Below are positions 1 to 4,807 of a stretch of DNA of 5,182 nt, one piece after another. Below the pieces are notes generated by a model. The model made no database searches. It was not told the origin of the DNA and worked only from the letters and a program-made list of their open reading frames with translations. The first letter of the stretch is position 1. Each line of letters opens with the position of its first letter. The stretch is from Deltaproteobacteria bacterium RIFOXYA12_FULL_61_11. Lineage in GTDB: Bacteria; Bdellovibrionota_F; JAHFAK01; YA12-FULL-61-11. The translations under genes were made by a program, and so were the position numbers. The stretch covers positions 1 through 5,182 of the forward strand of contig MGSU01000322.1 in NCBI GenBank assembly GCA_001799195.1, given 5' to 3'.

Positions 1-298
1 CCTCAAGAGCTAACTCCGCGGTGCCGTGCCCGGTCAGGATGATCACCGGTACGGCGCCGAACTCGGACCGCACTTTCCGCAAGGTTTCGAGCCCGTCCAT
101 ACCCTCCATCTTGAGGTCCAGGACAACTACCTGGGGGAGATTTCGGCGCATGTTCTCCAGGGCCTGCTTCCCACTACCCGCGGTATGGACCTCAAAGCCT
201 CTTCTCGTCAGGGCGCGAGCAGTACTCTCGCGGAACTCTCGTTCGTCGTCGACGAGCAGGACCATAGGTTTTGCAACACTCAGTTCTGGTTTCTGCAT
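1..298 (-). CDS. Receiver-domain response regulator, C-terminal part cut off by the window edge
   Basis: The frame is open from an ATG at 298 to the window edge, giving the first 99 residues. It starts MQKPELSVAKPMVLLVDDER and reads as a canonical CheY-like receiver: the acidic pair Asp17-Asp18, the predicted phosphoacceptor Asp61 in VVVLDLKMEGMDG, and the switch Thr89 in VIILTGHG. The conserved Lys would lie just beyond the edge. GGGAG at 305-309 sits 6 nt before the start, and the start is 13 nt after the permease stop, so it is the last visible gene of the operon. The segment ALTRRGFEVHTA closely resembles ALTRRGLSVRTA in the first receiver of the protein at 2186-3034, so the two are probably old paralogues; their codons differ a lot. 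Whether an output domain (DNA-binding, AAA+ sigma-54 activator, enzyme) follows cannot be seen. The receiver call is secure; the full architecture is unknown. Confidence 0.93.
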   Translation of the reverse strand, partial: MQKPELSVAKPMVLLVDDEREFRESTARALTRRGFEVHTAGSGKQALENMRRNLPQVVVLDLKMEGMDGLETLRKVRSEFGAVPVIILTGHGTAELALE

Positions 299-311
299 GG
301 TATTCTCCCAT

Positions 312-2162
312 TCACTGGAGGGGTAAACCCTGGAAGCCCAGAGCGTGCCAATATACAACCTGGAGGGCGATCAGGACGATCAGTCCGATGATAAGGCAGG
401 GGATACCCAGCCGCAGGAAATCCTTCATCTCCAGATGTCCACTGGCGTATATGATGGCATTCGGAGGAGTGCCGATGACCAGAAGATAGGCCATCGAGGA
501 AGCACAGGCCGTAGCCATACCCATGAACGGAATGACCGCGCTGCCCGGATTTGAGACCGCTGCCATGTTCAAGGTAATCGGGCCGACACAAGCAGCCGCG
601 GGACCATCGGCCATGAGCTGGGTCAACCCTGCCGTGACAAGACTTCCCAGCGCAACGAGACCCGTGCCGGTCGCAATGCCCAGGGGTTCAACCAGTTCGA
701 TGATAGAGCGAGCCATCCAGTAGGCAGTTCCGCTCTCAGCCATGACCTTGCCGAAAATGATCGCACCTGCATACAGCCAGACCACGCCCCAGTCGACTCG
801 CTCTTGGTAATCCCGCCAGTTAACCACTCCGGCGAGCAGGAAGGCCATGGCCCCGGCCACGGCAAGCACACCTAGACCCAGACGCACTCCCAGGAGTTCC
901 GTCAGTACATCCTTCTCCAGAATCCACCCCGTGACCATGACCACGAAGATGATGAGGGTAACAATCTGCTTTCGCGACCACCCCCCCATGGCCTCTATAT
1001 CGCGGCGCAAACCATTGAGCGCCTCACTGAGATCCAAGATCTTGGGTTTGAAACGCACGTTGACCAGGAACCAGAGCACCGGCATCATCACCAGGACGAA
1101 GGGGCAAGCGTAGAGCATCCATTCGGCGAAACCGATGTTGATGCCGAACATATCCTCGACGTAGGTCATCATGATGACGTTGCGCGCTCCGCCCGAGGGC
1201 GAACCGAACCCGCCGATGTTGCAGGCCATACCCACGGTCAGGATGAGCATCTTGGCCAGCTCGGGGTCGACAGGCACCTTTTCGTTCAAACTGTTGGAGT
1301 AGAGAATCATAGCAATGGGCAGGAACATAGCGGCCAAGGCGTGGTCCGAGATGAAGGCCGAGGCCGGCGCGATCACCAGGATCAGGATGCCAGTGATCAA
1401 CTTCAGGTTCGGTTTTGCCAAAACTTTGAACATCATCAAACAGATGCGTTTATCGACACCGGTCTTCACAAAGGCCGCCGCGAACATCAAGCTACCCATG
1501 ATAAACCAACAAGCGTCATCCCAGAACATCGAGGCGACCTCACGCCGTGAGACGACCCCGCCGAATACCAGGATCAGACCAATGCAAAAAGCTACGCCGG
1601 GCAGAGGCATGGCCTCGGTGAGGAAACAGGTAACCACGAACAGGACCAAGGCGAAGATCAAACGTATTTTTTTGGCTGTCTCGTCGACCTTCTTCCGCTG
1701 CCCCTCGTCCAGATCCGCCAGCGACAGACGTTCGTAGCGCAGAGCGTGAGCCTCCTGCATGACGGCAAAGAAACGCTCGGCCGATACCTCGGCAAGGGCT
1801 TTGCGATGGTTGGCGAGGTGGGCTTTATGAACCTCCAAACCAACCGATTTCATCCATTTCTCGTCCCGGGACAAGAGCTTCTCCTTGGTCAGCATACCTT
1901 GCTGCAGACCTTGTTCGAGGATACGCGCACTGAACGCCTCCCACTGCTCTGCACGGTCGAACTCCTTACCGTAGAACGTCGTTGTCAGATGGTCCAACAC
2001 GAACCGACTGCCGTAGGTATACTCCACTGCCACGTCGAGCATCGAGTCCGGTATCGGCATAAACAGCGTTGCCACGAACAGCAGTACGGCCAGCCCGAAT
2101 TTCCGGTAGTCCACGTAGCGGTCGTACCCGACAGCCTTTTTCCCAGAGACAGGCCTCTTCAT
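312..2162 (-). CDS. DASS/SLC13-type anion permease with altered cation-site motifs and a periplasmic insertion
   Basis: This 616-residue membrane protein belongs to the divalent anion:sodium symporter (SLC13/CitT/INDY) group of the ion transporter superfamily, which imports dicarboxylates, citrate or sulfate across the inner membrane. After a basic N-terminus, TM1 is at about 22-38. A soluble, charged, helix-rich stretch follows at about 45-165, then the family-typical TEAMPLPGV (182-190), FVKTGVDKRI (231-240) and the two inverted repeats. At the re-entrant hairpin tips, where the family has Ser-Asn-Thr, repeat 1 has Ser272-Asp273-His274 and repeat 2 has Ala518-Asp519-Gly520. The partner loop is GSPSGGARN (320-328) in repeat 1, while repeat 2 keeps the usual IGTPPNA (563-569). 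Usual family length is about 450-500, so the insertion accounts for the excess. The ATG at 2162 has AGAGGG 6 nt upstream and lies 23 nt after the REC-REC gene. The family is clear; substrate and coupling ion are not, and Na+ coupling should not be assumed. Confidence 0.9.
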   Translation of the reverse strand: MKRPVSGKKAVGYDRYVDYRKFGLAVLLFVATLFMPIPDSMLDVAVEYTYGSRFVLDHLTTTFYGKEFDRAEQWEAFSARILEQGLQQGMLTKEKLLSRDEKWMKSVGLEVHKAHLANHRKALAEVSAERFFAVMQEAHALRYERLSLADLDEGQRKKVDETAKKIRLIFALVLFVVTCFLTEAMPLPGVAFCIGLILVFGGVVSRREVASMFWDDACWFIMGSLMFAAAFVKTGVDKRICLMMFKVLAKPNLKLITGILILVIAPASAFISDHALAAMFLPIAMILYSNSLNEKVPVDPELAKMLILTVGMACNIGGFGSPSGGARNVIMMTYVEDMFGINIGFAEWMLYACPFVLVMMPVLWFLVNVRFKPKILDLSEALNGLRRDIEAMGGWSRKQIVTLIIFVVMVTGWILEKDVLTELLGVRLGLGVLAVAGAMAFLLAGVVNWRDYQERVDWGVVWLYAGAIIFGKVMAESGTAYWMARSIIELVEPLGIATGTGLVALGSLVTAGLTQLMADGPAAACVGPITLNMAAVSNPGSAVIPFMGMATACASSMAYLLVIGTPPNAIIYASGHLEMKDFLRLGIPCLIIGLIVLIALQVVYWHALGFQGLPLQ

Positions 2163-2185: not shown

Positions 2186-3034
2186 TCAGTCTCTGCGTAG
2201 TTCGTCCACCATGCGTTCCCGGTCTTGCCGTTCGTGGACCCGCTTGCTTTCAGCAGCGCTCCTGATGACGGTCGCCAACTGCTCTGGATCCTGCGGTTTG
2301 AGCAGGTAGTCGTAGGCCCCGGATTTGAGTCCCTCCACGGCGCTCTCTGCGGTAGCATGGCCGGTGAGCAGGATGACCTCGGTCGCCGGGTGTCGAGTCT
2401 TGATCGTGCGCAGCAGTTGCAGACCATCGATTCCGGGCATGCGAACGTCGACCACGGCTACGTCGCAGAGGGTGGTTGCGAGCACTTCGAGCGCGCGCTT
2501 CCCTTCCTCTGCCACGAGAACGGTGAAATTTCGCCGACGCAACACTTTGGAAAGCGTCGTGGTGAAGAGGTGCTCATCATCCACCAACAGCACAACGATC
2601 TCGCGTCGTCCGCTCTGTGCATTGTCCTCCGCTGCTATGACCTGGTCATCACCGCAGCGGACCGCATGTGCTTTCTGGATGACCTCGTACAGTTCCGCCG
2701 GCTCACAGGGTTTACCCAGGTAGTCGAACACACCCTTGCGTCCCAGTTCGAAGGCCTGACCAAGGTCACCGTGCCCGGTCAGCATCACCACCTCGGTCTC
2801 CGGCTGGAGGTGCTTGACCTCGGCAAAGAAAGCATGGCCGTCGGCGTCTGGCAGGCGCACGTCGAGAACCACGACCGCACAAGCGACGTGCCGGAGGACC
2901 TCTCTCGCTTCGGCCGCGCAAGCGGCTGTACGCACGCTGAGGCCACGTCGGGTCAAGGCCTTGGCCGTAGCATGGAGAAATTCGACCTCGTCGTCGATCA
3001 ACAGGACTGTGAACTCGGCCGTTTCGGGTTGCAT
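2186..3034 (-). CDS. Tandem receiver-domain (REC-REC) response regulator without output domain
   Basis: The 282-residue protein, counted from the preferred start, is two CheY-like receivers joined by a short polar linker. Receiver 1 has Asp14-Asp15, phosphoacceptor Asp58 (VVVLDVRLPDADG), Thr86 and Lys108 (YLGKP). Receiver 2 has Asp152-Asp153, phosphoacceptor Asp196 (VAVVDVRMPGIDG), Thr224 and Lys246 (YLLKP). All phosphorylation and switch residues are intact in both. A highly charged helical tail of roughly 25 residues (ending RERMVDELRRD) follows; there is no DNA-binding, AAA+ or enzymatic domain. It lies directly behind the histidine kinase and is probably its partner, acting as a phosphate sink, relay intermediate or protein-interaction switch (inference). 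I chose ATG 3034 because GAGGAGG lies 5 nt before it. An in-frame ATG at 3061 would add nine residues (MQPTIEEEI), overlap the kinase gene by 16 nt, and has the weaker AGGGAG 5 nt upstream. Confidence 0.93.
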   Translation of the reverse strand: MQPETAEFTVLLIDDEVEFLHATAKALTRRGLSVRTAACAAEAREVLRHVACAVVVLDVRLPDADGHAFFAEVKHLQPETEVVMLTGHGDLGQAFELGRKGVFDYLGKPCEPAELYEVIQKAHAVRCGDDQVIAAEDNAQSGRREIVVLLVDDEHLFTTTLSKVLRRRNFTVLVAEEGKRALEVLATTLCDVAVVDVRMPGIDGLQLLRTIKTRHPATEVILLTGHATAESAVEGLKSGAYDYLLKPQDPEQLATVIRSAAESKRVHERQDRERMVDELRRD

Positions 3035-3061
3035 TATTTCCTCCTCTATCGTGGGTTGCAT
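3026..3061 (-). repeat. 9-nt direct repeat ATGCAACCC at the two candidate REC-REC starts
   Basis: ATGCAACCC occurs at 3053-3061 and again at 3026-3034, exactly 27 nt (nine codons) apart and in the same frame, so both candidate starts encode Met-Gln-Pro. Each copy has its own purine-rich site upstream (AGGGAG at 3067-3072, GAGGAGG at 3040-3046). It could be a small tandem duplication of a translation start, or chance. Confidence 0.6.
3040..3046 (-). promoter_or_regulatory. Strong ribosome binding site of the REC-REC gene, overlapping the kinase stop
   Basis: On the minus strand this reads GAGGAGG, a full match to the core anti-SD complement, 5 nt before the ATG at 3034. Its first G is also the last base of the TAG stop of the kinase gene (3046-3048). 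This decides the start in favour of 3034 over 3061 and implies translational coupling. Confidence 0.75.
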
Positions 3062-4734
3062 CCGTTCTCCCTAGCTCGGGGTAAGGTGATATGGAACGCG
3101 GCTCCCCCGCCGGATTCGCTCTCGACCCAGATTCGTCCGTGCCAGCTCGTCACCGCGCCGAAGCACACAGCCAAGCCCAATCCCGTGCCTTTGCCAGGGG
3201 GTTTCGTGGTGTAGAACGGCTGGAAGCAACGCTCGAGATCGGCGCTCTCAACCCCTTTTCCGGTGTCCTCAACCACAAGGTGGACCAACGCACCATCGAC
3301 GAAGACCGAAACGAGGATGGCACCGTTGTCCTCGATCGCTTGCAGCGCATTGGTGATCAGGTTGGTGAAGACTTGCTGGAATTCGCAGGAGTCGAACACA
3401 ACCTCGGAAGTACACCCATCGTGCTCCAAACACAGATCGACGTTCTGCAGCGCGGCTTGCCTACTCATGGCCGAGACGACCTCTCGGAGCTGGACGACCG
3501 GTTCCAGCACCTCTGCCTTGGCCTGTCCCTGTCTCCCGAACTTGAGCATGCGCGAGGTGATACCCTTGCACCGTTCGATCTGTTTCCGGATGAGATCCAG
3601 CGATCCCCACAGTTCCTCTTTGTCGCCCTGGCTCAGACCGAGTCGCTCTAACACGTCCCCGAGATTGGTTTTTTCAGCGCTGATGATCGCCAGGGGATTG
3701 TTGATCTCATGGGCTAGTCCTGTAGCCATCTCCCCGAGCGAAGCTAACTTCGCCGCCCGAGTGAACTGGCGGTCCGCATTGGTTTTTTCCTCCATTGCCT
3801 TACGCACCATCCGCAATAACGTGCGGGTCGTGAAGAACACTGTGGCCAGCGCGAACCCGAGACCGAGGAGGAACACGAACATCCCACGGCCCATGGCTCG
3901 ACGCACGGGTGCGAGAACCTCGTCTTCGTCTTGTTGAGTGACCAACAACCACTGCCCCCCCTTGATCCACATCATGGTGCGGAGAAACTCGCGGCCATCG
4001 GGTTGTCGGTGGACACTCGACCGTATTCCCTCGAAGAGTTCGGGAGAGAGACCGCTCGCGGCCATGAGGTCCCCCCCACGAAGAGGCTTGGTCTGATAGC
4101 GGCCTTCTCGATCTAGGAGGTAACAGTCACCGCTGTGACCGAGGCCTCCGCGGGCAACCAAGGTCGAGAACTCCTTCAAATCTACCGTGCTCCGCAGAAT
4201 GAGGCTTCCTGCCTCGCTCGCCTCGCGCTTGACCGCCAGGACGAAATGGGGGACCCCACGGAAGCCGAGGAAGACGTCGCTGATGAACCACCCCTCAAGC
4301 ATGACCCGTTCGAACCACCGGCTACCCCGGTAATCCTTATCCATGAGATCGAAATCGCCATGGTACGAGAGGTGACGCCCATTGGAGCCGATCACTCCCA
4401 GGTCCTGGAAGAAGCCTGGGTAGTGCCGACCCAACCGTTCGTGCAATTCCTCGAGGGAGCCCTGCCCGACCAATCGCTCGAGCGGTTCGGTCGAGACCAA
4501 GAGGCGCATGACCTCGAGTCGCTCTTGTAAGAGGCGGTCGACCATAGAGGCATGATCTGCGGTCAGGAGTTGGAGTTGTCCCACCGCCGCATCGCGCATC
4601 AGTCCTTCGAAAACGAAATAAGCTCCGAGGGCAAGAACCGCCATCGGCACGGTGGCGGCGAAGAACAGGAGTCCTCGGACGCGGAACCCAATCCGCTGCA
4701 GCGCGGCTTGTTCCGAAGGGCAGGTTTGTTCCAT
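3046..4734 (-). CDS. Membrane sensor histidine kinase with extracytoplasmic Cache-like sensor
   Basis: The 562-residue protein autophosphorylates on His and passes the phosphoryl group to receivers, here most likely those encoded next to it. In order: TM1 at about 21-42; an extracytoplasmic region at about 45-280 that reads as a double-Cache sensor (SRWFERVM at 138-145, FISDVFLGFRGVPHF at 150-164, second lobe near GDCYLLDREGRY at 202-213); TM2 at about 285-303; and a short helical linker without a recognisable HAMP. The HisKA region follows, with phosphoacceptor His342 in GLAHEINNPLA. The HATPase domain has the N box (TNLITNAL, 457-464), G1 (DTGKGV, 490-495), F box (FQPFYTTK, 504-511) and G2 (GKGTGLGL, 514-521). 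All catalytic boxes are intact and no receiver is fused. It is the first gene of the operon. I chose ATG 4734; in-frame alternatives are GTG 4737 and ATG 4785, the latter without a visible SD. No ligand can be named. Confidence 0.93.
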   Translation of the reverse strand: MEQTCPSEQAALQRIGFRVRGLLFFAATVPMAVLALGAYFVFEGLMRDAAVGQLQLLTADHASMVDRLLQERLEVMRLLVSTEPLERLVGQGSLEELHERLGRHYPGFFQDLGVIGSNGRHLSYHGDFDLMDKDYRGSRWFERVMLEGWFISDVFLGFRGVPHFVLAVKREASEAGSLILRSTVDLKEFSTLVARGGLGHSGDCYLLDREGRYQTKPLRGGDLMAASGLSPELFEGIRSSVHRQPDGREFLRTMMWIKGGQWLLVTQQDEDEVLAPVRRAMGRGMFVFLLGLGFALATVFFTTRTLLRMVRKAMEEKTNADRQFTRAAKLASLGEMATGLAHEINNPLAIISAEKTNLGDVLERLGLSQGDKEELWGSLDLIRKQIERCKGITSRMLKFGRQGQAKAEVLEPVVQLREVVSAMSRQAALQNVDLCLEHDGCTSEVVFDSCEFQQVFTNLITNALQAIEDNGAILVSVFVDGALVHLVVEDTGKGVESADLERCFQPFYTTKPPGKGTGLGLAVCFGAVTSWHGRIWVESESGGGAAFHITLPRARENGCNPR

Positions 4735-4742
4735 CACCTCGG

Positions 4743-4747
4743 TCCTA
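4743..4747 (-). promoter_or_regulatory. Candidate ribosome binding site of the histidine kinase
   Basis: TAGGA on the minus strand lies 8 nt before ATG 4734 and 5 nt before GTG 4737. It is modest, but better than anything in front of the upstream in-frame ATG at 4785. A GAGG at 4737-4740 is too close to serve the ATG. Confidence 0.45.
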
Positions 4748-4807
4748 TTCCAATCCGACCCGAGTATCCGCCCCCCAGTGGGCATGAACCATGCCGTGCC
4801 TCATATC

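Follow-up and report, generated by a model that had tools for sequence, protein, structure and literature searches.

How is uptake powered in a probable sulfate permease of dissimilatory sulfate reducers in which the sodium-site motifs of its family have been replaced? According to a 2018 survey (PMC5840216), experiments had not yet identified the sulfate uptake protein of any dissimilatory sulfate reducer, and later work labels the DASS permeases of these organisms Na+-driven from family membership. The cation:sulfate ratio sets both the energy yield of sulfate reduction and the lowest sulfate that it can use in marine sediments. The locus studied here lies in a window (the whole stretch of DNA that was analysed, G000:C322:1-5182, 5182 bp) from a 4.64-Mb draft genome that is 87% complete. 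Its permease varies a known fold in a way that is real and holds throughout a clade, and this has a consequence for the energetics of sulfate uptake that can be tested.

The permease and its altered sodium sites

The window holds a minus-strand, operon-like run composed of a Cache kinase, a double receiver, the permease and the start of a receiver protein, with the following features:

2..298, minus strand: first part of a receiver protein truncated where the contig ends (domain search; receiver-CBS in relatives)
312..2162, minus strand: DASS/SLC13-type permease, 616 aa (translation of ORF 2162..312)
459..473, minus strand: loop opposite the second tip, canonical GTPPN, residues 564-568 (translation, alignment)
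603..611, minus strand: second hairpin tip, Ala518-Asp519-Gly520 replacing Ser-Asn-Thr; codon 519 at 606-608 (translation, phmmer)
1179..1205, minus strand: loop opposite the first tip, GSPSGGARN, residues 320-328; Arg327 codon at 1182-1184, where VcINDY has Pro
1341..1349, minus strand: first hairpin tip, Ser272-Asp273-His274 replacing Ser-Asn-Thr; codon 273 at 1344-1346 (translation, phmmer)
1698..2060, minus strand: helical insert of ~120 residues between TM1 and TM2 (permease residues ~35-155), present in 80 of 80 clade loci
2186..3061, minus strand: double receiver-domain response regulator (domain search; homologue in 78 of 80 clade loci)
3046..4785, minus strand: sensor histidine kinase with a dCache_1 domain (domain search; 16-base overlap with the double-receiver gene)

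Membership in the DASS/SLC13 (Na_sulph_symp) fold family is supported by profile searches above curated cut-offs, with 170.4 bits for Pfam Na_sulph_symp PF00939 (cut-off 27) and 230.6 bits for NCBIfam TIGR00785 (cut-off 198.6). The AlphaFold model (pLDDT 86) contains the scaffold and transport domains and two re-entrant hairpins, and compares with known structures at a VIA Z of 42.4 for human NaS1 and 41.1 for VcINDY (41-44 over NaDC3, NaS1 and VcINDY). In the model, the second helix of the first hairpin starts at Asp273 and that of the second hairpin at Asp519, while Arg327 lies in the first turn of TM5b.

A preliminary description of this DNA had stated that both Ser-Asn-Thr motifs of the permease are replaced and that the second facing loop keeps GTPPN. 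Both statements are borne out: in the phmmer alignment with VcINDY (E 1.4e-37), SDH and ADG coincide exactly with its two SNT motifs. The Thr of SNT has become His at the first tip and Gly at the second, and the first-tip Ser is kept. The same description read the first loop as GSPSGGARN rather than the PPN form. This loop is indeed altered, but it is of full length: its alignment to ATLVGSPPN of VcINDY has no gaps, and the key change is therefore that of the Pro202 equivalent to Arg327. A misplaced alignment of the tips was ruled out, since phmmer and MAFFT agree and the first loop has no gaps.

The permease thus shares with the SLC13/DASS Na+ symporters (VcINDY, human NaS1, NaDC1, NaCT) the fold and its two-hairpin transport domain (Z 41-44), the first-tip Ser, the second loop and the match to both profiles. 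It departs from them in carrying Asp for both middle Asn residues, His or Gly for Thr, ARN for PPN in the first loop and the ~120-aa helical insert after TM1. SNT at both tips, as in Na+-coupled DASS symporters (DASS-C), is replaced here by SDH and ADG. We found no earlier description of the loss of the SNT motifs in the open-access literature.

An analogy had also been drawn with the NDG-like signatures of ArsB. The ArsB arsenite/H+ antiporter does belong to the superfamily by fold (Z 39, 15% identity) and likewise has an acidic side chain close to the first tip. However, ArsB keeps the middle Asn, with Asp as its neighbour (Asn111-Asp112, PMC13381914), an arrangement absent from the SDH tip, which has no middle Asn. 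The ArsB-like row of our survey, L032, reads MND and lacks Arg327. The analogy therefore fails.

Conservation and history of the motifs

A scan of our genome collection recovered 80 loci with 53-63% identity to the permease, largely in Desulfobacterota; other hosts are metagenome-assembled genomes labelled Zixiibacteriota, LCP-89, Fibrobacterota and Phycisphaerae. All 85 sequences that share at least 45% identity with it keep SDH, ADG and PSGGARN, and more diverged members (~49% identity) read SDH, ADG and PSGAARN. To ~49% identity, therefore, SDH, ADG and PSG(G/A)ARN are present in all complete clade members that were read; one locus, L136, is truncated and lacks the second tip. This invariance (85/85) rules out random decay or a pseudogene, and the earlier remark that the fold is too well preserved for decay agrees with the fixation of the motifs in a large clade and with the quality of the model.

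The operon of Cache histidine kinase, double receiver, permease and receiver-CBS is likewise conserved in the family. The Cache part of the kinase was matched in 63 of the 80 clade loci, several of the others having too little flank, and a receiver-CBS gene lies downstream of the permease in relatives. Some genomes hold two SDH/ADG-type permeases, at places a few kb apart (G060:C133, with L117 and L119; L051; G262; G273; G285). In Desulfobacterium autotrophicum and another Desulfobacteraceae genome, the permease is followed by a small protein that weakly resembles the Yip1 domain (L187:938-1792; L189:6619-7257, minus strand).

We then surveyed tip types in 159 DASS sequences. Arg327 accompanies SDH/ADG (92 rows), SEH/SDG (20), SAH/SDA (8), xEH/SNx (11), HDx/xNx (6) and AHT/MNV (6), and is invariant throughout all of these Arg-loop groups, whereas the nine SNT/SNT rows all carry Pro at this position. 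At position 273 two sister groups depart from this, one with Ala and the other with His, yet both retain Arg327; strict pairing of Asp with Arg is therefore not a general rule.

We masked the motif columns and built a quick tree of 85 rows, which has some long branches outside the clade and is uncertain in its deepest branching. It places the Arg327 change on a single, deep branch and gathers the second-tip Asp into one clade (47 rows, SH-aLRT 99) nested inside the older Arg-loop group; the first-tip middle residue changes eight times (Asp/Glu, Ala, His, Gly, Asn). Arg327 thus has a single, deep origin and the second-tip Asp a single, later one, and the first tip is labile. With such separate histories, the two Asp residues do not represent the matched Asn-to-Asp change in both repeats that had been proposed. 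What is both new and stable is the Arg loop, and the second-tip Asp is the mark of the sulfate-reducer clade.

Association with dissimilatory sulfate reduction

The permease family is almost confined to dissimilatory sulfate reducers. The genome that carries our permease has dsrA (574 bits), and dsrA scores above cut-off in 37 of the 41 genomes carrying clade loci, with fragments in three more. In a Desulfospira-phylum sample, dsrA is present in 21 of 22 Asp519-type genomes (a count that includes one truncated SDH copy), in none of eight xEH/SNx genomes, which have Asn519, and in 121 of 247 genomes overall, a few weaker matches being left out of these counts (Fisher 1.5e-6 and 1.6e-6, uncorrected for kinship). 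The gene neighbourhood is also linked to sulfate: in two near relatives an APS kinase gene directly follows the receiver-CBS gene beside the permease (L035:8676-9422; L059:8733-9401). Most likely, the permease imports sulfate under the control of the surrounding Cache kinase, receiver and CBS operon.

Similar Cache kinase, receiver and CBS clusters surround the putative DASS sulfate transporters of group Cii (PMC5840216) and of a Desulfosarcina cluster (PMC11887813). The latter has been presented as a DASS-type sulfate uptake locus whose Cache kinases may sense sulfate. Both papers, in their available portions, treat such proteins as Na+-driven DASS and make no mention of the loss of the SNT Asn or of the Arg loop.

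D. autotrophicum (G400) has three DASS genes, spaced four and three genes apart, which match HRM2_38230, HRM2_38270 and HRM2_38300 in order. Its SDH/ADG protein is the middle one, by gene order HRM2_38270, already listed as a putative sulfate transporter of group Cii by Marietou in 2018 (PMC5840216). In the same survey, HRM2_38230 and HRM2_38300 are reported as induced at low sulfate and HRM2_38270 as unchanged with sulfate, so that sulfate as the substrate of the clade rests on context and not on expression. We had considered whether the SDH/ADG gene could be the induced HRM2_38300; gene order rules this out, HRM2_38300 being an HDA-type paralog.

DASS permeases of the HDx/xNx type occur in the same clusters (L064:8608-10186, L099, L111, L114 and G400:C1:4301793-4303322). 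One of them, HRM2_38300 by gene order, likewise has the Arg loop but no second-tip Asp. PMC5840216 contradicts itself on expression: one section assigns HRM2_38300 to high and HRM2_40290 to low sulfate, and a later one reverses this.

Coupling, substrate and control

In NaS1, Na1 is bound by backbone carbonyls and by a single side chain, that of Asn140, and sulfate is held by the tip residues Ser139 and Thr141 and by Thr259 and Ser260 of loop 5; in NaDC1, Asn141 and Asn476, the middle Asn of each motif, lie at Na1 and Na2 (PMC10980263). The DASS Na+ sites have been described as clamshells (PMC9098524), and in the permease model the first hairpin tip and the Arg327 loop form the two halves of the Na1 clamshell. 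Since both Na+-holding side chains are replaced in every member examined, the assumption of a Na+ drive needs testing. The preliminary description had proposed altered ion coupling through a proton or a cation held by carboxylates. Altered cation handling is indeed a reasonable reading, given replacement at the true sites, fixation in the clade and an intact fold. The picture of carboxylates alone overlooks the invariant Arg327 and His274 which, we infer, put positive charge at the Na1/substrate pocket.

Taken whole, the explanation that we prefer, and to which we give about an even chance, is a sulfate-importing DASS elevator permease with Arg and Asp at Na1 and one cation site at Asp519. Arg327, Asp273 (Glu, Ala or His in sister groups) and His274 would fill the Na1/sulfate pocket as built-in charge, the fixed Arg327/Asp273 pair sitting next to sulfate where Na1 would otherwise bind, much as Arg159-Glu146 does in the exchanger LaINDY. 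Asp519 and the unchanged GTPPN loop could form an anionic, Na2-like site for a single coupling cation, Na+ or H+, which Asp519 might bind either more firmly or by becoming protonated. NaS1 has two sites and uses ~3 Na+; sulfate import by the permease would then draw on fewer cations, or on other ones. More tentatively, and at less than an even chance, we suggest that the sulfate-reducer branch of DASS has abandoned two-Na+ chemistry altogether, with a loop Arg standing in for the first Na+ and one site built on Asp that takes one H+ or Na+ per uptake. If so, the cost of sulfate entry differs from the value assumed from DASS membership. The deciding residues can be named (Asp273, Arg327 and Asp519), and their fixation across phylogenetically broad sulfate reducers makes the coupling directly testable.

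Sulfate uptake by whole marine sulfate reducers is Na+-dependent, according to work cited in PMC5840216. This fits a Na+ site at Asp519 rather than a purely proton-coupled one, and it also speaks for an ordinary Na+/sulfate symport in which both Na+ sites are kept, the Asp carboxylates standing in for the Asn amide oxygens and Arg327 and His274 merely taking over sulfate binding from the Ser/Thr hydroxyls that were lost. Asp coordinates Na+ well, the backbone carbonyl ligands can remain, and in NaS1 Thr141 and residues 259-260 touch sulfate near the present places of His274 and Arg327. We nevertheless regard two-site symport as unlikely: an Arg inside the Na1 clamshell works against a second cation at that site, and the same Arg persists in sister groups with Ala or His at the first tip.

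The built-in charges could instead make the permease an obligate antiporter that exchanges sulfate for another anion, the mode of transport suggested for LaINDY, where Arg159 and His392 are Na+ surrogates (PMC7553777). DASS exchangers of the LaINDY and CitT type share with the permease a fixed Arg apparently in place of the Na1 cation, and Arg327/Asp273 would be analogous to Arg159/Glu146 of LaINDY as Na+ surrogates (PMC7553777). We find exchange improbable, however, as the permease is only distantly related to LaINDY (16% identity, phmmer E 2e-4) and has Asp, adding negative charge, where LaINDY has His392 at the second site. The Arg of the permease lies in the loop before TM5b, facing the first site; Arg159 of LaINDY presumably lies in the hairpin. 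No less improbable is a substrate other than sulfate, such as thiosulfate, sulfite, molybdate or a dicarboxylate. Such an oxyanion or organic acid would agree with the sulfate-insensitive expression of HRM2_38270 (PMC5840216), with the three different DASS permeases side by side in D. autotrophicum and with a MOT1-type permease that adjoins the clade locus in L109. The co-occurrence with dsrA and the adjacent APS kinase of two relatives point to sulfate instead.

A PHROGs search gave only a weak match to an unknown. We obtained no strong structural match for the helical insert. It is probably periplasmic, since paralogs carry a cytoplasmic receiver fused before TM1. These paralogs, of the SEH/SDG type, have a response-regulator receiver domain fused ahead of the DASS permease, at its cytoplasmic N-terminus (L041:781-2814; L092:1262-3520; and, in the genome of our permease, G000:C310, L156:626-3262, minus strand, 879 aa). 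Such a receiver-DASS fusion suggests direct phospho-control of a transporter.
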